Source of the DNA: Bacteroidales bacterium
GTDB lineage: Bacteria > Bacteroidota > Bacteroidia > Bacteroidales > UBA932
Direction of reading: 5' to 3'
DNA length: 34,388 nt
Assembly: GCA_017454265.1 (NCBI GenBank)
Contig: JAFTDJ010000044.1
Location: 1-34,388 of the forward strand
Position numbers and translations under genes: made by a program. Numbering within the stretch: position 1 is the first letter of the stretch; each line of letters starts with the position of its first letter. Positions 2,868 to 18,849 of this stretch are shown here, in pieces. Below the pieces are notes generated by a model. That model did no database searches, was not told the origin of the DNA, and was given only the letters and a program-made list of their open reading frames with translations.

Positions 2868-3731
2868 TCATATAAGGTTTAGAATGTCGGAAGCTTCTGA
2901 ATATGATATCCCCATTACCCTTGCCAACTGGTTGACATCGGCGCTGAACCGGAATCTTAATTGCCGTAGTAACTCGCTCATCTGTTGTTGATTAAGCTGC
3001 TCTATACCCTTTGCGCGAAACAATGAATAACACAGGTCTTTAGCCGATTCGGAAATGATCTGGTCCCTAAATGAAGGCGCCGCCTCCTTATCAAGATGCT
3101 TTCGTGCTTTTGATGAATTATTCAGAAAGTAGCGGAAGCTGTTGGCAGAGCGGAATACTGACTCGACAAATTTAACCGGTATGTATGACGAAGGGAGAAC
3201 GAAGTTGTCGTTGCTAAGCCGATAGTGGGAAGGGAGTTTTACGTTGCTTCTTATTAACCGGCACTGTGTCTTGTAACTGAGTTCTCCAAGCGCTCTGCCA
3301 TTGAGTTCAATAGCATTGAAGAATGTGTCGCCCGTTCCCCACGGGTACATGTTAGGGTAAGCACAAATGTTCGCGGCAACGCTGTTCATTATTACGTAGG
3401 CTATAGCCCTTTTTAATGACTCATCTTCCAAATACACTTCCCTTATATCTATCTTGACGAGCCTGAAGTATTCTTTGGAACCGTACTTGCCTGAATAGTA
3501 CCTTCCGTACAGGGTTTTAAACCTGTCGGCAAAAAGCTTGGCCTGACTGCGTGTGCATTCAAGCATAAAATGGACATGATTGGACATCAGAATGAAGGTC
3601 AGAACGTTAGCCCCGAGTGTGTAGGAAACTACGGCGACATAGTTCATGGCCACGCGGAAGTCTTCATTGTCCCTGAACCACAGACGATCAGAAAAATGAT
3701 CGGAAGTAACGAGAAAGAATTTCACAGTCAT
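2868..3731 (-). CDS. REP-associated tyrosine transposase (RAYT, Y1_Tnp family)
   Basis: This 287-residue protein has the hallmarks of the Y1 HUH transposase fold (IS200/TnpA_REP). The metal-binding HUH motif is MSNHVHFML (H52 and H54). A helix AYVIMNSVAANIC holds the likely nucleophilic Tyr112, followed by PNMYPWGTG, which matches the YxNPVRAG...YxWSS region of RAYT proteins. It is longer than IS200 TnpA: residues of about 190-287 form a helical extension ending in a putative helix-turn-helix (VNQLARVMGISYSEASDIL), a likely REP-recognition domain. Such enzymes nick and rejoin single-stranded DNA at hairpins. The ATG at 3731 follows a TACATTTG box by 27 bases. Flanking REP pairs support the assignment. 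Confidence 0.88.
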   Translation of the reverse strand: MTVKFFLVTSDHFSDRLWFRDNEDFRVAMNYVAVVSYTLGANVLTFILMSNHVHFMLECTRSQAKLFADRFKTLYGRYYSGKYGSKEYFRLVKIDIREVYLEDESLKRAIAYVIMNSVAANICAYPNMYPWGTGDTFFNAIELNGRALGELSYKTQCRLIRSNVKLPSHYRLSNDNFVLPSSYIPVKFVESVFRSANSFRYFLNNSSKARKHLDKEAAPSFRDQIISESAKDLCYSLFRAKGIEQLNQQQMSELLRQLRFRFSADVNQLARVMGISYSEASDILNLI

Positions 3732-7608: not shown

Positions 7609-7995
7609 ATGAATTCAGACAGCAAGCGCAGACACGTTATCAGCCAGGAGAACCTCCCTGCGGACATCGCACAGTTGTTCAACGAGAAATATCCCAAGGG
7701 GTTCACAGACCTCCTTCCGGACCTTGTAAAGTACGCTCCGGGCGTCAATCCCAGGACCGGCAAGGAGATAACTCCGTTCTATGCAGTCACCATAGAGACG
7801 GACAATGATATCTACCTGGTAAAGATAAAGGTGGATATAGATAATCCTGAAGATGTGGAACGCTGGCTTGAGGGAGAAGAAGAAGCCGAGACGGAGGAAG
7901 TCGCAGGCACCAGTGGAGCGCCCGAGGGCGACGACACTCTCCCGGACGACAATATTTCCCAGTACGGTGGGGATGACGACTCGTCGGACGCATAA
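7609..7995 (+). CDS. Small conserved-looking acidic protein of unknown function
   Basis: This 128-residue protein starts at the ATG at 7609 (MNSDSKRRHVISQENLP). Residues of about 15-85 look like a compact alpha/beta domain (LPADIAQLFNEKYPKGFTDL ... FYAVTIETDNDIYLVKIKVD). The remainder, from about residue 88, is a low-complexity acidic tail with many E and D residues ending DDDSSDA. There is no signal peptide or membrane segment. I do not recognise a named family. Its last 23 bases overlap the start of the ClC gene, so the two are probably translated from one message. A weak promoter (TTTG at 7556-7559, TAATATTG at 7580-7587) lies upstream, back to back with the sirtuin promoter. Confidence 0.75.
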   Translation: MNSDSKRRHVISQENLPADIAQLFNEKYPKGFTDLLPDLVKYAPGVNPRTGKEITPFYAVTIETDNDIYLVKIKVDIDNPEDVERWLEGEEEAETEEVAGTSGAPEGDDTLPDDNISQYGGDDDSSDA

Positions 7996-9779: not shown

Positions 9780-9852
9780 GCCACTTTAGCTCAGTCGGTA
9801 GAGCAGCGCATTCGTAACGCGCAGGTCGTCAGTTCGAGCCTGATGAGTGGCT
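9780..9852 (+). tRNA. tRNA-Thr (anticodon CGT)
   Basis: The 73 bases fold as a standard cloverleaf. The acceptor GCCACTT pairs with GAGTGGC (one G-T), the D arm is GCTC...GAGC, the anticodon loop is TTCGTAA with anticodon CGT, and the T arm is GTCAG TTCGAGC CTGAT with one pair unmatched. The closing base pair of the anticodon loop is A-C rather than A-T. CCA is not encoded. The discriminator base T at 9852 is also the last base of the convergent AraC gene's stop codon. Confidence 0.95.
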
Positions 9853-10769
9853 CAAAATTCAGTCAGAGACTTTCTTGCGGAGTCCCGGTAGTCTGAGGGA
9901 GATACTCCCACCAGTCTCTTGAAATAGCGTCCGAACAGAGCCTGGGTAGGGAAATTCAATTCATACGCGATTTGCTGAACTGTATTTACGGTAGAATACA
10001 GTTGTGCCTTGGCATCCAGGATGACATAATCTTCAATCCACTGAATGGCGGACTTTCCGCTGGCATGCTTGATGAGCGTCGTCATATATTTGGCCGAAAG
10101 GTTCATCTGGTCCGCGTAGAACCTTACATCTCGGTGCTCGCGGTAGTGAAGCTTTACCAGTTGCAGAAATTGCATCATGACTTCGCCGTGGCGTTGCTGG
10201 TTCTCTTTTTCCGGTGACGGGATGTTGAGCATGGAGCTTGTCATTTGGAAAAACAACTTGCTGAGCAGTCTGAACACTTCTTCCGTATTAAAACTCCCTT
10301 CCTGAAGCTGCATCAGGTCGTTGCACAGTTTTGCGAAGGATCCGAAAGCATCTGCCGTTTTCTGGTCAAGTTTGCGGAAGGGGTTAGCTTCCACGCTTTT
10401 ATAGAAAAGGTAGGTGTCGCCCAGGCTAAGCCGTGAGACAAAGCGCTCTGAAATAAGAAAGAACGTTCCTTTGAAGTCATTGCTGAGCTCCTGGGAGGCC
10501 AGAATCTGACCAGGAAGTCCTATAAGCATGGAATTTTGGGTAATCTGGAATTGGCGCAGGTTTATGGATCCGCGGCCGGAACCTCCGTTGCAGAGCACTA
10601 TCAGGATATGCTTCATCTTGTATGGCTCCCAATTCACTTTAAAATGCGGGTTATGGAGTATAAGGACATCATCCTGGAGACGTTCAATTCCTCCTGCCTT
10701 AGGCAGGTCGATGAGGGACATCTGGAGAGATTCCAGCTGTTTTTGATTGAACTTTTCGTTTTGTGCCAT
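9852..10769 (-). CDS. AraC-family transcriptional regulator
   Basis: This 305-residue protein has an N-terminal cupin-like sensor domain (about residues 20-150; phrases such as LQDDVLILHNPHF and NSMLIGLPGQI) and a C-terminal AraC DNA-binding domain (about 205-305) with two helix-turn-helix units: VRFYADQMNLSAKYMTTLIK and VQQIAYELNFPTQALFGRYF, followed by KRLVGVSPSDYR. It is divergent from the DUF4493/PCMD operon across 161 bases that hold four copies of an 11-base half-site in two 21-bp-spaced pairs, so it very probably controls that operon and itself. The ATG at 10769 is preferred to a TTG two codons earlier. The 3' end abuts tRNA-Thr, with one shared base. Confidence 0.92.
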   Translation of the reverse strand: MAQNEKFNQKQLESLQMSLIDLPKAGGIERLQDDVLILHNPHFKVNWEPYKMKHILIVLCNGGSGRGSINLRQFQITQNSMLIGLPGQILASQELSNDFKGTFFLISERFVSRLSLGDTYLFYKSVEANPFRKLDQKTADAFGSFAKLCNDLMQLQEGSFNTEEVFRLLSKLFFQMTSSMLNIPSPEKENQQRHGEVMMQFLQLVKLHYREHRDVRFYADQMNLSAKYMTTLIKHASGKSAIQWIEDYVILDAKAQLYSTVNTVQQIAYELNFPTQALFGRYFKRLVGVSPSDYRDSARKSLTEF

Positions 10770-10782
10770 ATTCAATAAGAGT

Positions 10783-10864
10783 GCAATTGTTCCGTAAAAT
10801 TAAGCAATATTTCCACATTTGAACAAATAAAAGGAATAATTGCATAACAATAAGGAATTATTGT
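10783..10864. promoter_or_regulatory. Divergent AraC operator array: four half-sites, 21-bp spacing
   Basis: Four copies of a motif with consensus RCAATWDTTCC lie between the AraC gene and the surface operon. On the plus strand there is GCAATTGTTCC (10783-10793) and GCAATATTTCC (10804-10814). In opposite orientation there is GGAATAATTGC (10833-10843) and GGAATTATTGT (10854-10864). Starts within each pair are exactly 21 bases apart, two helical turns, as for tandem AraC half-sites. The pair nearest the operon ends 25 bases before its -7 box, so the last site lies just upstream of the expected -33 region, where an activator would touch RNA polymerase. The other pair lies over the regulator's own promoter region, suggesting autoregulation. 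Confidence 0.75.
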
Positions 10865-10889
10865 GAACAGAAATGCTGTGAGATTGGAG

Positions 10890-10897
10890 TATTTTTG
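10890..10897 (+). promoter_or_regulatory. -7 box of the surface-lipoprotein operon
   Basis: TATTTTTG matches TAnnTTTG and lies 33 bases before the first ATG. There is no TTTG at the -33 position (about 10867-10870), as expected for a promoter that depends on an activator. Confidence 0.5.
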
Positions 10898-10930
10898 CCG
10901 CTCGACAAAACGATAATTAGTTAGTGTAGT

Positions 10931-13117
10931 ATGAAGAATCATTTCTTGCAGTACATTCTATTGCCCTTCTTGTTGGCCGGATGTACAGCAGAAAAGTTTG
11001 ATGGTACGACAGCCTGCGAAGGCGCCATCAGGCTTTCTCTTTCGCAGGAGGGCCCGGAAACAAAATCCGTCTTGGAAGATCTGCCTTCGCTGGATGATTT
11101 TGAGGTGGAGATATACAGCGCGAACGCAATTCGCCTGTATCGCGATTCCTATGCACGTAGCAAAAACACCCTCATTAAACTCAATGCCGGCCAGTTCCGA
11201 CTGGTAGCTCATTATGGTGACACACTGGGCGCCGGTTTCGGGAAGCCATATTTTCTGGCCGATGAAGCTTTTACAGTACACGGATATGCAGAGAATAATG
11301 GCCGGCCGGACGAAGTGGCGGCTACTGCCCGTCTTTCCAATGTACGCATGACTGTGCAGCAGGGTACCAATCTCCGCAGCTCATACGAAGACGCTTACGT
11401 GGTGGTACGTCATGCCCGCTACACCAAGAAACAGGTGAAATTCGTTCAGGATGAAACCCGTTTCGGCTACATCCCCGGCGGAGACCTGTACCTGGAAGTG
11501 TACGCCAAGCTTTTTACCGGTGAATGGAAGTACTACAAAAGCGAGCCTGTCTCATACCTCCCCAACGACAACGTAACGTTCAAGGTGGATGCTGCCGGAC
11601 GCGACGGCTCCATCTCGGTGAACATTGAAGTGGACCGCAGCGTAGAAACCATAACCGTAGAGGAACTTATCGGAGAAAACGCCCTCCCCGCGCGTGAACC
11701 TTATTTCGTATTTAACGGTGACAAGGACGGCGATTATACTTACAGCTGCAATGCCGGTTTTGTAAAAACCGTGAGCGATGCCATCCTGACCCTAAGCGCA
11801 GGAGCCAGCACGGGTATTGCGAGCGTAGTGCTGCATACTGAGTCTGGCTTTGTCACTCTTCCCGACGTGGATCTGGTCTCCACTTCCGGTTCGGAAAAGC
11901 AGCTGCTGGTCTCCGCCGGTCTGGACTGGCAGGCAGGCGTCACCAGCAACCTGGGTTATGTTGACTTCAGCGGCCTCGTAAACCGGATGATAGAGAGCGG
12001 CGGCGCGGCATCGGCCAGCTTTACCCTTAGCTTCACCGACGGGGTTGGGCAGCAGGTGCAGGGCACCTTCTCGCTGGAAGTAAAGCCATTCAGCGCCACG
12101 GTAACGGTCCCGGATGTGAATATCTGGGCCTGGAAGATGACAGGCGTCACAGCTGTTGTGGAGGGTGTGGAAACTATTCCTTCCAATGCTGCCATGGGAC
12201 TGCAGTGGAGTACCGACGGCGTTTCCTGGAGTTCAGAGAAGGCACCGGAGTCTGTCAGCGGCAACACCCTTTCCTTCGGTGACATTACCGGCCTGAGCCC
12301 TGCTACGGCCTATCGCTTCCGGGTGGTGCCCATGCATATGGCAGACCGCGCTTCTGTAACCTCCGGCGCCTTCACCACAGAAGCTGCACTTCAGGTGGGG
12401 AACAACGGATTTGAGGAATATACGGCCCAAAGCTATACCACTCCGGTTACTTTGGCCAGCGATTTCAAGGTAACCTGGTGGCAGCTGTACGGCAATGCTT
12501 CAGGCGCCTGGTGGGGAGTAAACGCATTACAAACCATCGAGAGCGGCAAAGTGGCCACCGCATATCAGGACTATAAAACATATCCTTGTGTAGCGGTGTT
12601 CAATTCCGGATCCTATTCAGGAAACAGCGTGATGCTTGCTACCGTATATATCGGTAATTCCGTGGCGTCGGAAATCACTCATGGAGACACCAATTATCCC
12701 GGTGAAATTTTCCTCGGAACCGCCAATAACAAGAACAAGGGTTCCTGGGCCAAAACGTCCGAGGGCCATTCCTTTGCCAGCCGCCCGTCGGCCCTGTCTT
12801 TCATGCATCGTTTCAATCCCAACGGCCCGGCTTACTATGCGCAGATCCAGGTGTTGGATGCCTCCGGCAACGTGATAGGATCCGGTGAAAAGAATGACGG
12901 AACTGCTGCAGTGGACGCATGGACGCGGGTAACCATACCAATAACCTATACGGCTGTGAACCGGAAAGCTGCCAGCCTTCGTATCAGCATACGTTCCTCA
13001 AAGAATGGTGGCGAAGGCGCCCGTAAACTGTCGGACATTTCTACATTGTCTGGCACTCATAAGATTTACTGCGGCAACGCACTTTATGTAGATAACGTGG
13101 AACTCCTTTACCAATAA
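10931..13117 (+). CDS. Lipoprotein with DUF4493-like, Fn3-like and PCMD-like domains
   Basis: This 728-residue protein is the first gene of the operon. The signal peptide ends in the lipobox LAGC (Cys18), so the mature protein is lipidated. Residues of about 30-235 resemble DUF4493 (GAIRLSLSQ ... LDDFEVEIYSAN ... LIKLNAGQFRLVAHYGD). A fibronectin-III-like segment follows around 390-485 (MTGVTAVVEGVETIP ... GLSPATAYRFRVVP). The C-terminal 240 residues (NNGFEEY to YVDNVELLYQ) look like a jelly-roll related to the putative carbohydrate metabolism domain, but more diverged than in the fourth lipoprotein. The function is unknown; a glycan-binding or adhesive surface protein is inferred. The gene that follows starts six bases after the stop. 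Confidence 0.75.
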   Translation: MKNHFLQYILLPFLLAGCTAEKFDGTTACEGAIRLSLSQEGPETKSVLEDLPSLDDFEVEIYSANAIRLYRDSYARSKNTLIKLNAGQFRLVAHYGDTLGAGFGKPYFLADEAFTVHGYAENNGRPDEVAATARLSNVRMTVQQGTNLRSSYEDAYVVVRHARYTKKQVKFVQDETRFGYIPGGDLYLEVYAKLFTGEWKYYKSEPVSYLPNDNVTFKVDAAGRDGSISVNIEVDRSVETITVEELIGENALPAREPYFVFNGDKDGDYTYSCNAGFVKTVSDAILTLSAGASTGIASVVLHTESGFVTLPDVDLVSTSGSEKQLLVSAGLDWQAGVTSNLGYVDFSGLVNRMIESGGAASASFTLSFTDGVGQQVQGTFSLEVKPFSATVTVPDVNIWAWKMTGVTAVVEGVETIPSNAAMGLQWSTDGVSWSSEKAPESVSGNTLSFGDITGLSPATAYRFRVVPMHMADRASVTSGAFTTEAALQVGNNGFEEYTAQSYTTPVTLASDFKVTWWQLYGNASGAWWGVNALQTIESGKVATAYQDYKTYPCVAVFNSGSYSGNSVMLATVYIGNSVASEITHGDTNYPGEIFLGTANNKNKGSWAKTSEGHSFASRPSALSFMHRFNPNGPAYYAQIQVLDASGNVIGSGEKNDGTAAVDAWTRVTIPITYTAVNRKAASLRISIRSSKNGGEGARKLSDISTLSGTHKIYCGNALYVDNVELLYQ

Positions 13118-13123
13118 GCGAAT

Positions 13124-14368
13124 ATGAAAAAGATACTCTATATTGTCGCAGTCGCTGCCGCAGTTGCAGCCTGCACCGTACAAAAAACACCCGAAGGTAC
13201 CGGCATGCTTTCCCTGACGGCTGCGCAGGAGGGCGTTTATGCCACCAAGGCCAATGACGTGCTGGCCGATTTCGTAGTTGATATCGTACGTCCTTCCGAT
13301 GGCTGGACCAAGCACTACGACCGCTACATCGACATCCCCCAGACTATTTCCCTGGGCAGCGGGGATTATACCATTACCGTGGCTTCGCCACAGTTCAGGA
13401 ATGCCGCGTGGGATTTGCCGTATTACAAAGGAACTGCCGACTTCACCATTCGTGTTGACGAGTTGACTCCGGTCAATGTAACGGCTTCCCTTCAGAATAT
13501 GAAAGTGAGCTTTGTCCTTACTGACAACTTCAAGAATGAGCTCACTTCTTACACAATCGTTGTGACCAACGCTTCGTCCTGGGATGCATCCGATGCTGCA
13601 AGCAAGACACTTACCTGGTCTTCTGCCACCGGTGACGTGGAGCAGACTGCAGGTTACTTTTCTGTGGCTCCCCTTCGTGTAAAAGTGGATGGCTATCGCG
13701 CCATAGACAATAGCGAAACGCATTCCGAGCTGGTGATACCCAATGTGGCGGCTCAGGACTACCACATTATTACCCTGGACGCCCGTGTGACCGGCCAGAT
13801 GAACGGTATCAGCATAACCATCGACCCTTCTCTGAACGATCGTGAAAGCAGCGTTGAGGTGCCCGGCTGGGATGAAGTTCCCGTCGATGGAGGCAACGAC
13901 CCCGACCCTGAACCTGATCCTGGTCCTGGTCCTGATCCGCAGCCTGCTACCGCGCCGACAATGACCTGGGCTTCGAATCCGGAATTTGCCCGTACGCCGA
14001 TCCGCAGCGAGATGGATGTGAACATTACCATCAATGCCCAGGAAGGTATCCGCGACTTTGTGATTGATGTGGATTCCAGCATTCTGGGAGGAGTGATTGC
14101 CGGTATGGGCGGCGAGTCCAATTCTGACGGTACGGTGAAAATGGACCTGATTAATAACGCCTCTCTGGTGACGGCACTCGGAAACCTTGGCGTTCCTACC
14201 GGGGATCAACTCAAGGATAAGACGGAGGTTGAATTCTCGCTTTCCAATCTGGTTCCCATGATTCTGATGTACTCTCCGGCGAGCGGATCGGAGCATACCT
14301 TTACCCTGAAAGTGACCGACAACAAGAGCCAGAGTCTGGAGAAGGCCATAGTATTCTATGTGGAGTAG
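13124..14368 (+). CDS. DUF4493-like lipoprotein with Asp-Pro linker
   Basis: This 414-residue protein has the lipobox VAAC (Cys17). The N-terminal region (about 25-245) is DUF4493-like: GTGMLSLTAAQEGVYATKA, LADFVVDIVRPSDGW, LGSGDYTITVASP, VTASLQNMKVSFVL. A spacer made of alternating D-P, E-P and G-P follows at about 258-272 and is encoded by near-repeats of CCTGAT/CCTGGT. The last 140 residues form a separate domain that I do not recognise, ending KAIVFYVE. Unlike its neighbours it has no PCMD. The rigid Pro-rich spacer suggests that the last domain is held away from the membrane. Confidence 0.78.
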   Translation: MKKILYIVAVAAAVAACTVQKTPEGTGMLSLTAAQEGVYATKANDVLADFVVDIVRPSDGWTKHYDRYIDIPQTISLGSGDYTITVASPQFRNAAWDLPYYKGTADFTIRVDELTPVNVTASLQNMKVSFVLTDNFKNELTSYTIVVTNASSWDASDAASKTLTWSSATGDVEQTAGYFSVAPLRVKVDGYRAIDNSETHSELVIPNVAAQDYHIITLDARVTGQMNGISITIDPSLNDRESSVEVPGWDEVPVDGGNDPDPEPDPGPGPDPQPATAPTMTWASNPEFARTPIRSEMDVNITINAQEGIRDFVIDVDSSILGGVIAGMGGESNSDGTVKMDLINNASLVTALGNLGVPTGDQLKDKTEVEFSLSNLVPMILMYSPASGSEHTFTLKVTDNKSQSLEKAIVFYVE

Positions 14369-14372
14369 GAAG

Positions 14373-16511
14373 ATGAAAACCAAATTATACCTGATGGCGC
14401 TGCTGGCGCTGGTCGCCTGTTCGCGCGAGGCGGACCGGCTACAGGGTACCGGGTATCTGACTGTCAGGCTGGGTACAGACCTGACGGTAACCCCGGTGGT
14501 GAAATCCCAGGCCGGCGAGCCCGACCCTGTGTTCTCGTTGGAGATCGTTCCGGTGAAAGGAGGAGATTCCATCCATGTTAGCGATTACCGTACCCTGGAA
14601 AGTGAGCCGCTCACCTTGCCGGTAGGAGATTATTCTGTAAAAGCGGTTTCCGGTCCGGATACCAGCCTTAGCTGGGAAAACCCGCGCTATGAGGGGGAAG
14701 CCAATGTAAGCGTGCTTCCCGACCGCATTTGTGAGGCGGTGGTTACCGCTTCGCTTGCACGCACTATGGTAACGGTAGAATTCGATGCTGAAACAGCCGC
14801 TTATTTTACCGAATACCGTGTTACAGTAGCCAATGAGGGCGGAGACGCCCTGGTGTTCAGCCGTGGAAACGGCAACCTGTCCAGGACGGGCTACCTGGCT
14901 GCTTCCGCCTTGGACTGGGACCTTTATATGGTGAATACCCAGGGAACCGCTTACCGGGTTGGCCCGGTGGCTATCGAAAACGTGCAGGCACGGCAGCATT
15001 ATCACTTCAGTTTCAGTATTGACCGTTCGCGTGCCCAGGCAGGCTCGTCCCTGTTGCGCGTGCTGGTAGACGACTCACAGACGGAGAAATACTATCAGTT
15101 GAATCTGGACTTCGGCGTTGACGGGCTGCCCTCCATAAGCGGATATGGTTTCGACCTCTCCAATGGTATTTCCGTGAAAAAGGGAGACGTCAACAATCAC
15201 AGTATTGTGTTATTCAGCGCCCCGCAGGGAATGCGGTCCCTTACGCTCAGCCACAGTGATCCTACGCTTCTTGAGGCAGGTCTGCCGCAGTTCGTGGAAC
15301 TGGTCGATGCCTCGTCATCTACCGTTTCAAATCTTACGGGCGTAGGCGTAGGAGTGCAGGCCGTAGGCTATGGTACCACGGCCACAGAGGTGGACCTCGG
15401 TTCCTTCCTGGGCGGTCTTCCAATGGGCGAGTATTACCTCTCGCTGGATTTGATCGATACCCGTAATCGTTACAGTGCCGCTACAGTGGTGCTCTCCGTG
15501 ACTTCTCCCGTAGAAGCCGAAGCCACCACCGCTAAACCATGGGCCGGTTTTGCCATCCTCAATGGCCGCTGGTTTACCGAAGGACGTCCTTCCGGCCTCC
15601 GCTTCCAATGGAAAAAGGCAGGTGACGGCGAGTGGACCGATTATGCGGGAACCGTTACCTGCAACGATGCCGCTGCTACTTTCAGCGCCGAGTTATATGG
15701 CCTGCAGAGCGCAACTGCTTATATGTTCCGCGTAAAGACGGACAAGGACGAAGAGACGCGCGTAGTTAGCTTCACAACGACTGCGGCGGGAACCATTCCC
15801 AACCTGAGTTTTGACGACTGGTACCAGGACGGCAAAGTCTGGTATGCCGCATCCGGCGCATCTGCCCGCGTGTGGGATTCGGCCAACAAGGGCGCCGCCA
15901 CGTTTATTGGCAGTACCACCACGCCAGAAACTTCGGATGTGGTGCGTGGCAAGGCGGCCCGTATGGAGAGCGCCTACGCCGTGGTGAAGTTTGCAGCCGG
16001 AAACATCTATATCGGCTCTTTCGTGGGTCTGGCCGGTTTGGGCGCCGAACTGGATTGGGGCATGCCCTTCTCTTCCCGTCCGGTTGCCTTGCACGGATAT
16101 TACAAGTACAGCCCAAAGGCCATCGACTACACTGAATCGCCCTACGGTTCCAAGAAGGGGGAAATGGACGCCTGCTCCATAAAGATGTATCTTTGCGACT
16201 GGAGCGCTCCGTTCCGCGTGAACACCTCTACGAGTACATTCCTGCAGGATGACGATCCTTCAATCATAGCTATGTGCGATTTTACCTCAAACGTGGCTAC
16301 CAGCGGTTATGTAGAATTTACATTCCCGCTGCAGTACCGCGACGACCGTACTCCGAAGTACGTGGTAATCGTGGGTGCGGCATCACGCCTGGGTGACTAT
16401 TTCACCGGCGCCAAGGGCTCTATCCTTTGGTTGGACGAACTGTCGCTGGTATATGACGCCGGACAGCTCTCAGAGGAGGAACGCCAGTTGGTAGGTTATC
16501 GCAATCTCTAG
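14373..16511 (+). CDS. DUF4493-PCMD lipoprotein
   Basis: This 712-residue protein starts at the ATG at 14373, which gives a clean signal peptide with lipobox LVAC (Cys16); an ATG at 14358 is in frame but would add MWSRK and overlap the previous gene. The N-terminal part is DUF4493-like (GTGYLTVRLGTDLTV ... TLPVGDYSVKAVSG ... VTASLARTMVTVEF). An Fn3-like segment lies around 395-475 (YGLQSATAYMFRVKTDKDE). The C-terminal 230 residues are a PCMD: LSFDDWYQDGKVWY, RVWDSANKGAATF, RMESAYAVVKFAAGNIYIG, YFTGAKGSILWLDELSLVYD. Despite its name, PCMD has no established activity. The stop is two bases before the TTG start of the barrel gene. Confidence 0.82.
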   Translation: MKTKLYLMALLALVACSREADRLQGTGYLTVRLGTDLTVTPVVKSQAGEPDPVFSLEIVPVKGGDSIHVSDYRTLESEPLTLPVGDYSVKAVSGPDTSLSWENPRYEGEANVSVLPDRICEAVVTASLARTMVTVEFDAETAAYFTEYRVTVANEGGDALVFSRGNGNLSRTGYLAASALDWDLYMVNTQGTAYRVGPVAIENVQARQHYHFSFSIDRSRAQAGSSLLRVLVDDSQTEKYYQLNLDFGVDGLPSISGYGFDLSNGISVKKGDVNNHSIVLFSAPQGMRSLTLSHSDPTLLEAGLPQFVELVDASSSTVSNLTGVGVGVQAVGYGTTATEVDLGSFLGGLPMGEYYLSLDLIDTRNRYSAATVVLSVTSPVEAEATTAKPWAGFAILNGRWFTEGRPSGLRFQWKKAGDGEWTDYAGTVTCNDAAATFSAELYGLQSATAYMFRVKTDKDEETRVVSFTTTAAGTIPNLSFDDWYQDGKVWYAASGASARVWDSANKGAATFIGSTTTPETSDVVRGKAARMESAYAVVKFAAGNIYIGSFVGLAGLGAELDWGMPFSSRPVALHGYYKYSPKAIDYTESPYGSKKGEMDACSIKMYLCDWSAPFRVNTSTSTFLQDDDPSIIAMCDFTSNVATSGYVEFTFPLQYRDDRTPKYVVIVGAASRLGDYFTGAKGSILWLDELSLVYDAGQLSEEERQLVGYRNL

Positions 16512-16513
16512 CA

Positions 16514-17266
16514 TTGAAGAAAATAATCATACTGATTCTGACTGCCTGTCTCGCTGTTCCGGGACAGGCGCAGGAGAAGTTTACACGCGGATTTGAGGGG
16601 AAGAACAAGATTTTTATTCCTAAAAACAGCTTTGGAGGAGGCCTCAGCGCCTCCTGGCGAAAATTCTCGCTTGGTGAAGACGAAGGGTACACAGTTGTTT
16701 CCAAGTACGTTGGAGACCTGAAGGGCAGTTACAGTTCGGTAGGCGTGGCTCCTTCGTTTGAGTATTTCTTTGCCGACAATCTTAGTGCTGTGGCGCGTTT
16801 CGATTATTCCTTGCTTGGAGTAAACCTGGACAACGCATCAGTCAAAATATCGGACGACCTGGGGCTGAGCATCAGCGGACAATACTTCAAACGACAGTCT
16901 TATGCACTTGCTGCCGGTGTACGTTATTATGTCCCTTTTATGGGCAGCAAGATTTTCGGCTGGTTTGTAGAGGGAACTATCAACGGCGGTTTTGTCCAGA
17001 GTATGCTCTATGAGTATATAGAAGGCCTGAAACAAGGGACCTACGACGCCAACTGGAAACTGGCGCTCAGGGTCGATCCCGGTATTTGTTTTTTCGTACA
17101 GGAAAACTTTGATTTTGAGGTCTCAGTCGGACTGCTTGACCTGACATGGAATAATACGCGCCAAAACGAGAACCAGATAAAAAACAGCTCCGGGAGCAGC
17201 CTTGGAACAGGATTTAATATAGACCTTCTGTCTATCCGTTTTGGTGCGCATTTCTACATATGGTAA
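16514..17266 (+). CDS. Outer-membrane beta-barrel protein of the DUF4493/PCMD operon (TTG start)
   Basis: This 250-residue protein begins with TTG at 16514; no nearby in-frame ATG would keep the signal peptide (KKIIILILTACLAVPGQAQE). LTAC resembles a lipobox, but it comes very early, and a cleavage near GQA fits a barrel better. The body has alternating amphipathic strands (for example ALAAGVRYYVPFMGSKIFGW and FDFEVSVGLLDLTW) and ends with FGAHFYIW, an aromatic terminal residue typical of substrates of the BAM machinery. It resembles small Bacteroidetes OmpW/outer-membrane beta-barrel-domain proteins. It may anchor or export the co-encoded lipoproteins; that is inference. It overlaps the next gene by seven bases. 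Confidence 0.75.
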   Translation: MKKIIILILTACLAVPGQAQEKFTRGFEGKNKIFIPKNSFGGGLSASWRKFSLGEDEGYTVVSKYVGDLKGSYSSVGVAPSFEYFFADNLSAVARFDYSLLGVNLDNASVKISDDLGLSISGQYFKRQSYALAAGVRYYVPFMGSKIFGWFVEGTINGGFVQSMLYEYIEGLKQGTYDANWKLALRVDPGICFFVQENFDFEVSVGLLDLTWNNTRQNENQIKNSSGSSLGTGFNIDLLSIRFGAHFYIW

Positions 17267-18849
17267 AACGTTGGATACATATAGCCCTTTTCGGGCTGCT
17301 TGCAGTGGGCTGCGCTTTCCCTAACGACCTGGACTATCCCTGTGTGGTCGGAAGCATCGTGTCTCTGGATTTGGAAGGGGCCAAGGAGATACACATAGAT
17401 TCAGAAGCACGCGAGGTGTCCGTAGTCCTGGAAGAGTGGGCGGATATGAGCCACGTGAAAGTGAACGAGTGCACCTTGTCGGAGAATGCGAGCTGCACGG
17501 ACATAGGGATTTGGCTTGATCTTACCAAACCGGTGAAAGCCGTGCTGCGCACGTATCAGGACTACGTATGGACCATTACCGCCACTCAACCCATTGAGCG
17601 ATATGTGCGGTGTGCCGGACAGGCCAGGGAGGCGATGTTTAACCTTGAGTCAAGGCACGTGTATGTGTATTTGCCGGATACCCATCCTCTCACGAGCGTG
17701 ACCATAGAAGAAATGAAGCTGGAACCCGAAGGATCACACATAGTGAGTACCACAGGCTATGAGAGCGACCTGGAACATCTGACGCTTACCACCCGCACGG
17801 TCTCCTTTCCAATGACCCTGGACTGTGTGACCGAACGAAGTTTCTATGTGGAATGGCACGGCGAGGTGTACGAGTGGCATCTCAAGGCTTTGCAACTGAA
17901 GGTGTCTGCTGCAGTGAGCGAGGTGGAGGCCCATTGCTATTCGGCACGCATACGTGGAGTCTTCGCATCCGACGGCTCTTCCGTGGGGGTGGAATACAAA
18001 AAGGTGGAAGAAACGGAGTGGACGACTGCCGTAGATGTCACGGTTTCCGGAGTCGGAGTTACCGCCCGACTGACAGGCCTTACGCCCGGAACGGCATATG
18101 AGTGCAGGATTCGGGAGGGCGCGGAAGCGTCGGCGGCAACTCCGTTTCAGACGGAACAAGCCGTTCAGCCCGACAACCTTAACTTTGATTCCTGGCACGC
18201 CAACGGAAAGGTATGGAACCCTTGGAGTGAAGGCGGAGCCCGGGTGTGGGATTCAGCAAACAAGGCTACTGCATCCTTTACGGGAAGCGCAACGACTCCG
18301 GATGAGACATTCGTGGCTGTAAGCGGTCCGGGCAAGAAGGCCTGCCGGATGGAGAGCAGTTTTGCCGTGGTTAAGTTCGCCGCCGGCAGCGTGTTCACAG
18401 GGGAGTTCGTAAAGCTCCAGGGCCTGGGCGCAGAATTGGCCTGGGGAATCCCATTCACGGCAAAGCCCGTTTCCTTGAAGGGATACGCTGCCTATAAGAG
18501 CACACCGATTACCGATGCCGACAGTGCCCACGGCTATCTCAAGGGGAAGCCGGATACGGGACATATCCTTATAGCGCTTACCGACTGGTCTGACCAATTT
18601 CACGTAGTGAGCTCTACCGGCACGTATGTAGATTTCGATAATGATCCCTCCATTATCGCTTATGGCCGTTATGCCCTTTCGGAAACAACCGACAAGTACA
18701 TCTCCTTCGACATTCCGTTGGTTTACAGGAACACCCGTACGCCCAAATACCTGGTGATAGTTGCCTCCTCCAGCGCTCTTGGAGACTTCTTTACAGGCGG
18801 CCGGGGGAGCACTCTCTGGATTGATGAATTGGAGCTGGTGTACGATTAA
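17260..18849 (+). CDS. PCMD lipoprotein, last gene of the operon
   Basis: This 529-residue protein has signal peptide MVKRWIHIALFGLLAVGC with lipobox AVGC (Cys18). The N-terminal half differs from its sister proteins, with two tandem beta-rich segments (IHIDSEAREVSVVLEEW ... VKVNECTLSENAS, and YVYLPDTHPLTSVTIEEMKL). An Fn3-like segment follows (LTGLTPGTAYECRIREG). The C-terminal 230 residues are a full PCMD closely parallel to that of the third gene: LNFDSWHANGKVWN, RVWDSANKATASFTG, RMESSFAVVKFAAGSVFTG, DPSIIAYG, FFTGGRGSTLWIDELELVYD. No terminator follows: the last 59 bases overlap the 3' end of the convergent nhaA gene. Confidence 0.82.
   Translation: MVKRWIHIALFGLLAVGCAFPNDLDYPCVVGSIVSLDLEGAKEIHIDSEAREVSVVLEEWADMSHVKVNECTLSENASCTDIGIWLDLTKPVKAVLRTYQDYVWTITATQPIERYVRCAGQAREAMFNLESRHVYVYLPDTHPLTSVTIEEMKLEPEGSHIVSTTGYESDLEHLTLTTRTVSFPMTLDCVTERSFYVEWHGEVYEWHLKALQLKVSAAVSEVEAHCYSARIRGVFASDGSSVGVEYKKVEETEWTTAVDVTVSGVGVTARLTGLTPGTAYECRIREGAEASAATPFQTEQAVQPDNLNFDSWHANGKVWNPWSEGGARVWDSANKATASFTGSATTPDETFVAVSGPGKKACRMESSFAVVKFAAGSVFTGEFVKLQGLGAELAWGIPFTAKPVSLKGYAAYKSTPITDADSAHGYLKGKPDTGHILIALTDWSDQFHVVSSTGTYVDFDNDPSIIAYGRYALSETTDKYISFDIPLVYRNTRTPKYLVIVASSSALGDFFTGGRGSTLWIDELELVYD

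Follow-up and report, generated by a model that had tools for sequence, protein, structure and literature searches.

The question raised by this locus is whether the short region between an AraC-family regulator gene and a divergent surface-protein operon serves as an operator for both, and how it would act on each. The DNA comes from a Bacteroidales bacterium (GCA_017454265.1, contig JAFTDJ010000044.1), and the whole 34,388-nt stretch that was analysed is referred to as the window. The first-pass annotation had placed four copies of RCAATWDTTCC between the two transcription units, and all four were exact at the positions and on the strands claimed, as was the 21-bp spacing in both facing pairs. 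In the left pair, on the + strand, the outer half-site s1 (GCAATTGTTCC, 10783..10793) has the regulator start codon on one side and the predicted regulator -7 box on the other, and the inner half-site s2 (GCAATATTTCC, 10804..10814) lies immediately upstream of that box. The right pair, on the - strand, consists of the inner half-site s3 (GCAATTATTCC, 10833..10843) and the outer half-site s4 (ACAATAATTCC, 10854..10864), and the four sites together form a dyad centred at 10823.5. The whole window contained 6 exact matches to RCAATWDTTCC compared to 0.15 expected from 100 shuffles, and the remaining two, at 7949 and 18906, stand singly. When the intergenic stretch 10770-10930 was shuffled 20,000 times with its dinucleotides preserved, 19,952 shuffles had no match, 48 had one and none had two, against the four observed, which excluded a chance origin.

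The regulator gene (9852..10769, - strand) encodes 305 amino acids and was identified by Pfam HTH_18, the predicted structure and Foldseek. HTH_18 scored 65.5 bits against a cut-off of 33.6, and the sequence matched the DNA-binding domains of AraC and SoxS. The structure model (pLDDT 81.4, pTM 0.66) has strands at residues 27-107 and helices at 189-303, so that the protein is modelled as a cupin-like N-terminal domain followed by a C-terminal double HTH; in the sequence itself, Pfam found no cupin family up to an E of 1. At the domain level, Foldseek matched the regulatory domain of RhaR (TMt 0.73), the dimerisation domain of AraC (0.66) and BgaR, and for the DNA-binding part the domains of AraT and AdpA. 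The matches were good at this level only, and over the whole chain ToxT and Rns were matched loosely, with a TM of about 0.4. Since the matched entries include both fatty-acid-bound structures and sugar sensors, the fold leaves the ligand unnamed. The HTH_18 match and the AraC-like domains of the model agree with the AraC-type regulator that had been proposed from the sequence, and the DNA-binding region was nearly identical across 8 aligned regulator proteins. Translation most likely starts at the ATG at 10769 rather than at the TTG at 10775, as judged from an ATG at the aligned position in 17 of 18 loci. At its 3′ end the regulator gene adjoins a tRNA-Thr gene (anticodon CGT, 9780-9853) encoded on the opposite strand.

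The divergent operon lies on the + strand and begins with a DUF4493 protein that has a lipoprotein-like start, as judged by eye (10931..13117). It continues, by Pfam, with a second DUF4493 protein (13124..14368) and a protein with both DUF4493 and PCMD (14373..16511), then with a possible outer-membrane beta-barrel (16514..17266; a weak OMP_b-brl_2 match with an E of 0.0042, below the curated cut-off) and, again by Pfam, a PCMD protein (17260..18849). PCMD matched the solved structures 3hbz, 4jrl, 3s30 and 4het, whose depositions describe them as putative or hypothetical glycoside hydrolases, and the structure model of a DUF4493 protein reached a mean pLDDT of only 46.8 (5 sequences). The terms DUF4493 and PF13201 and the full name of PCMD were not found in the literature searched. 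Elsewhere in the window, a 287-aa open reading frame at 2868-3731 resembled REP-associated transposases by eye and had no Pfam match at an E of 0.001.

The close relatives comprised 20 loci after removal of duplicates, with regulator identities of 57-73%, in addition to the window. One of these (L008) had no upstream sequence, leaving 19 relatives and the window, 20 loci in all, for comparison of the operator. Both pairs were present in 19 of 19 such relatives by the model R1, with a worst E of 1.7e-4, where 18 of the 20 R1-positive loci (window included) made up the R1 training set and the other two were near copies. In the alignment A1, which covers the intergenic region of 18 loci, the mean column identity was 0.86 in the half-sites compared to 0.66 in the other intergenic columns, and when the site mask was moved along A1 in 141 slides, 0.86 was reached only by two one-base shifts. 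The conservation peaks in A1 coincided with the half-sites and two -7 boxes. Across these 18 loci s1 was the least conserved half-site, with a mean column identity of 0.79 compared to 0.82-0.94 in the other three, of which s2 had 0.94. The 21-bp spacing was kept in all aligned right pairs and in all aligned left pairs except that of L010, which is one base shorter. The gap between the pairs was 18 nt, and 19 nt in L011 and, with the same extra base, in L007; apart from these one-base changes the 21-29-21 layout was retained. Thus, across orthologous loci the sites were conserved above their neighbouring sequence, rather than lost from flanks that were kept. The consensus in the first-pass annotation fits the window and is too narrow for the family, as a broader half-site formula, T-N3-CA-N5-TTCY, was read by eye from alignments A2 and A3 of the 18 orthologous regions.

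The 21-bp period was also seen in a motif-free test, which scanned the 200 bp upstream of the regulator for 11-mers that recur, with 9 or more matching positions, at each lag. Among 8 close relatives, 7 had such a repeat at lag 21 and the other lags occurred in 0-3; among 41 distant homologues, lag 21 occurred in 2 and the other lags in 0-5. An operator common to all AraC homologues was rejected: in 48 distant loci R1, which was trained on the close clade and is to be read there accordingly, gave three weak part-matches with a best E of 0.0022. Upstream of three regulators at 43-45% identity the layout seemed by eye to be similar with changed bases, most clearly in L096 and L097; R1 gave E values of 0.006 and 0.13 in each of these two and none in L098. 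The genome collection contained 57 relatives of the regulator, including 9 loci at 59-73% identity, in entries titled Bacteroidales or Bacteroidia and in several cases from ruminants. Within the family, 5 of 249 genomes had regulator matches at an E up to 1e-60, and within the genus 19 of 400 did, both counts including the window's own genome and the three regulators at 43-45% identity; in a second genus 3 of 40 genomes had them, the same three as in the family search. The regulator is therefore uncommon.

The genes that the operator faces fell into two types. At 12 of 20 loci (the window, L004, L005, L007, L011, L085, L087, L090, L091, L092, L094 and L095) it faces a DUF4493/PCMD operon, which in L004 and L095 runs off the end of the contig or stretch. 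At the other 8 (L003, L006, L009, L010, L086, L088, L089 and L093) it faces a GT4 glycosyltransferase. Downstream of the regulator and on its strand, L010, L088/L186 and L089/L187 carry SDR, Steroid_dh, Oxidored_FMN, SDR and PCMD genes, to which L088/L186 and L089/L187 then add DUF1295; L086/L188 carries PCMD and DUF1295 genes there. In L093 the whole set of enzymes and PCMD lies downstream of the glycosyltransferase, and in L006 a PCMD gene does. A PCMD gene was thus found in runs leading away from the operator at 6 of 8 second-type loci, and the SDR/steroid-5-alpha-reductase-like/OYE cluster at 4 of 8; L009 is truncated on the side of the glycosyltransferase, and in L003 the stretch examined had no PCMD gene. 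Gene identities came from Pfam for L093, L006 and the L003 glycosyltransferase, from a search of its own for Steroid_dh and from tblastn at 73-95% for the rest, and we infer that these runs are operons. PCMD is common to both target types. Downstream of the DUF4493/PCMD operon in L005, L007, L011, L087, L090, L091 and L092, and of the GT4 gene in L003, there is a TMEM260-like (PF11028) homologue of protein O-mannosyltransferases, a call made by Pfam on the L005 fragment and by resemblance at the other loci. In the window, an NhaA-like gene takes its place, as judged by eye.

A gene set of the Steroid_dh, Oxidored_FMN and SDR kind has been described for Bacteroidetes in the available text of two articles (PMC12697870, PMC11271093). 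Where Steroid_dh genes lie away from the regulator, the operator was found in none of the eight surrounding stretches (2.4-3.5 kb each; seven in first-type genomes, one in the second-type genome G368), and a Steroid_dh match was absent from 7 of 19 genomes, the window's own included. Both results count against a tight link between the enzymes and the operator. The partner type did not quite follow a simple clade: the regulator tree requires two changes because L003, the sister of the window (100/99), has a GT4 partner. One genome, G499, carries three copies of the regulator and operator (L003, L011 and L083/L085), two of the first type and one of the second, and these paralogous loci would be useful for questions of cross-talk. 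One regulator clade has thus kept its operator while the target genes changed, and the new element here is that its partner genes are of two kinds.

The first-pass annotation had proposed the operator as a handle on the whole regulon; a wide one did not emerge. In the window's genome (75.65% complete, 150 of 666 R1 candidates scored) the two pairs of the window had E values of 1.6e-6 and 4.3e-6, followed by 0.022, 0.39 and 0.70, and no second paired site stood out within this scope; a weak target could escape a search of this extent. The hits at 0.022 and 0.39 were part-matches, each with one half-site-like stretch beside a -7-like box, either intergenic or close to an intergenic region. R1 includes the regulator -7 box, so ordinary promoters can score with it. 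Lone half-site-like matches beside -7-like sequences were likewise seen elsewhere in the genomes, and part of the R1 signal is therefore promoter sequence. For the fourth DUF4493 gene of the window's genome (on C28), no R1 hit was listed.

Further operators were found only in relatives, where convincing copies without a regulator gene occurred in 2 of 19 genomes, G470 and G585, each with the regulator on a different contig. The operator on G470:C11 precedes an SDR-DUF1295 pair that matches the second-type set. On G585:C26, one operator has a tyrosine phosphatase gene on one side and, on the other, the gene of a 445-aa protein that carries a Listeria-Bacteroides repeat domain, and another adjoins a DUF7064 gene. 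One pair is degenerate on G470:C11 (the regulator-side pair, 9.4 bits) and one on G585:C26. These three examples, few as they are, suggest that new genes can acquire copies of the operator. A worn four-site operator in G585 (L160, 7267-7341) lies beside an apparent alpha/beta-hydrolase gene fragment, the gene being called by eye. Weaker R1 hits, read by eye, were not counted: a part-match on G368:C40 (E 0.0046), a match common to G266:C8 and G570:C8 (E about 0.03) that spans most of a pair and could be a weak operator, and a single half-site beside a -7-like box common to G334:C1 and G382:C98 (E about 0.045). The remaining hits, with E values from 0.04 to 1, were inspected in part.

How the two pairs would act depends on where they lie relative to the promoters. 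According to the available text of PMC7366714, Bacteroides promoters have the consensus TAnnTTTG at -7 together with TTTG near -33. The predicted operon -7 box (TATTTTTG, 10890..10897, + strand) fits TAnnTTTG and, read on the other strand as CAAAANTA, occurred at all 18 aligned loci, at a distance of 25-26 nt from the core C of s4. The box between s1 and s2 (TAATTTTA, 10795..10802, - strand) has one mismatch to TAnnTTTG and is likely to be the -7 box of the regulator; an exact TAnnTTTG occupies this place in 6 of 18 aligned loci. With the -7 box at 10890, the operon -33 position would be at about 10866-10870. TTTG was found there in 0 of 18 aligned loci, which read GAACA or variants, and no conserved TTTG was seen by eye at the regulator-side -33 in A1. 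With its conserved upstream T, s4 extends to 10867 and contacts the -33 position, which it abuts like a class II activator site, in terms of position relative to a predicted promoter. The operon -7 box and s4 at its -33 therefore place the right pair in the position expected for an activator of the operon. The left pair spans the core of the predicted regulator promoter.

We infer from this arrangement that the region is probably a common operator of the regulator and the surface operon, where the right pair would serve to activate the operon and the left pair to repress the regulator's own gene. A regulator dimer would bind each 21-bp tandem pair, with one monomer per T-N3-CA-N5-TTCY half-site, and the cupin-like domain would presumably hold a ligand. 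The dimer on the right pair, upstream of a good -7 box without a recognisable -33, would switch on the DUF4493/PCMD operon, and the dimer on the left pair, around the regulator -7 box, would block RNA polymerase and limit synthesis of the regulator. These signs are favoured because the right pair abuts the -33 position and the left pair brackets the regulator -7 box, positions that are consistent with the activation of the operon and the autoregulation predicted in the first-pass annotation. Counting against this reading are the weak conservation of s1, the degenerate regulator-side pair of G470:C11 and the weak whole-chain fold matches. Moreover, at least four second-type regulators precede metabolic or PCMD genes on their own strand, and simple autorepression would repress those genes too.

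The orientation of the half-sites bears on the sign as well. In XylS, MekR and AraC sites the second of two boxes lies towards the promoter. The order of the boxes is fixed in these sites as PMC4514859 writes them. The right pair reads from CA to TTCC away from the operon, and if CA and TTCC are the first and second boxes, an assignment made by resemblance to XylS, MekR and AraC only, it points at the regulator and may serve both promoters. It is thus possible, though on the whole unlikely, that the right pair activates both promoters, so that the regulator switches itself on and the left pair merely caps its level. On this account s4 abuts the operon -33, and s3 has the usual XylS/MekR/AraC polarity for a site upstream of the regulator promoter, at 30 nt from the regulator -7 box compared to 25 nt from s4 to the operon -7 box. 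The lack of TTTG at -33, in all 18 aligned loci on the operon side and as a conserved box on the regulator side (by eye), speaks for it as well. However, s3 is about 5 bp farther from its -7 box than s4 is from its own, and the gap between the pairs differs by 1 bp in L007 and L011. The dyad symmetry of the pairs, which is retained in the aligned loci, would also suit a single repressor platform that holds both promoters off, perhaps by bridging the facing pairs, until a ligand releases it. This is improbable, as the right pair lies upstream of the operon -7 box and not over it, and the missing -33 box suggests a promoter in need of help. That the sites are AT-rich repeats with no role in binding the regulator, in a region that is indeed AT-rich, is scarcely credible given the shuffle controls, the limitation to one regulator clade and the operator copies before other genes.

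The preferred reading, activation of the operon and autorepression of the regulator, gives an uncharacterised surface-protein system a defined candidate switch. The enzyme cluster beside the operator in relatives is a first hint, and the best lead, on the signal. One target set would join this ring-reducing cluster to a GT4 glycosyltransferase, and the other, present in the window, would be a DUF4493/PCMD surface-lipoprotein machine. A speculative and rather doubtful reading is that in gut Bacteroidales the regulator clade senses a compound resembling steroids, bile acids or other hydrophobic lipids, with the four-site operator wired to either target set and PCMD as a lipid- or glycan-handling surface part. 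If true, it would provide a first signal and function for the DUF4493/PCMD proteins. Taken as sequence, the region has the marks of a real, conserved AraC-type operator of an ordinary kind, with a double facing layout and a change of targets that are less usual. No title or abstract opening among the literature matches listed described this operator.

The arrangement can be compared to several known systems. In the araI1-I2/araO1 region of Escherichia coli AraC, the regulator gene is divergent, the half-sites are in tandem and autoregulation acts from sites at the regulator promoter. In contrast, the present region has a second facing pair, with equal spacing, within the same short stretch. 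In the available text of PMC4514859 the AraC half-site is written TAGC-N7-TCCATA, which resembles the AGC-AATTTT-TCC of the window. For MtlR at PmtlE of Pseudomonas fluorescens, the available part of the description gives a 15-bp block at -72 to -58 and another at -50 to -36, both upstream of the -35. Given an operon start near 10903, the half-sites of the right pair would fall at about -70 to -60 and -49 to -39; in the MtlR system, however, the regulator gene is located elsewhere and there is a single pair. A likeness in spacing is seen with XylS at Pm and MekR at PmekA, whose site formulas, TGCA-N6-GGNTA-N6 and CACC-N5-CTTCAA-N6, both total 21 in the available text of PMC4514859, in agreement with the two-turn tandem spacing of AraC-type sites that had been proposed for this locus. 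As here, each has two bipartite half-sites in direct repeat with a 21-bp period, whereas the present operator has other bases, two pairs that face each other between divergent genes, and promoters of the Bacteroidetes type.
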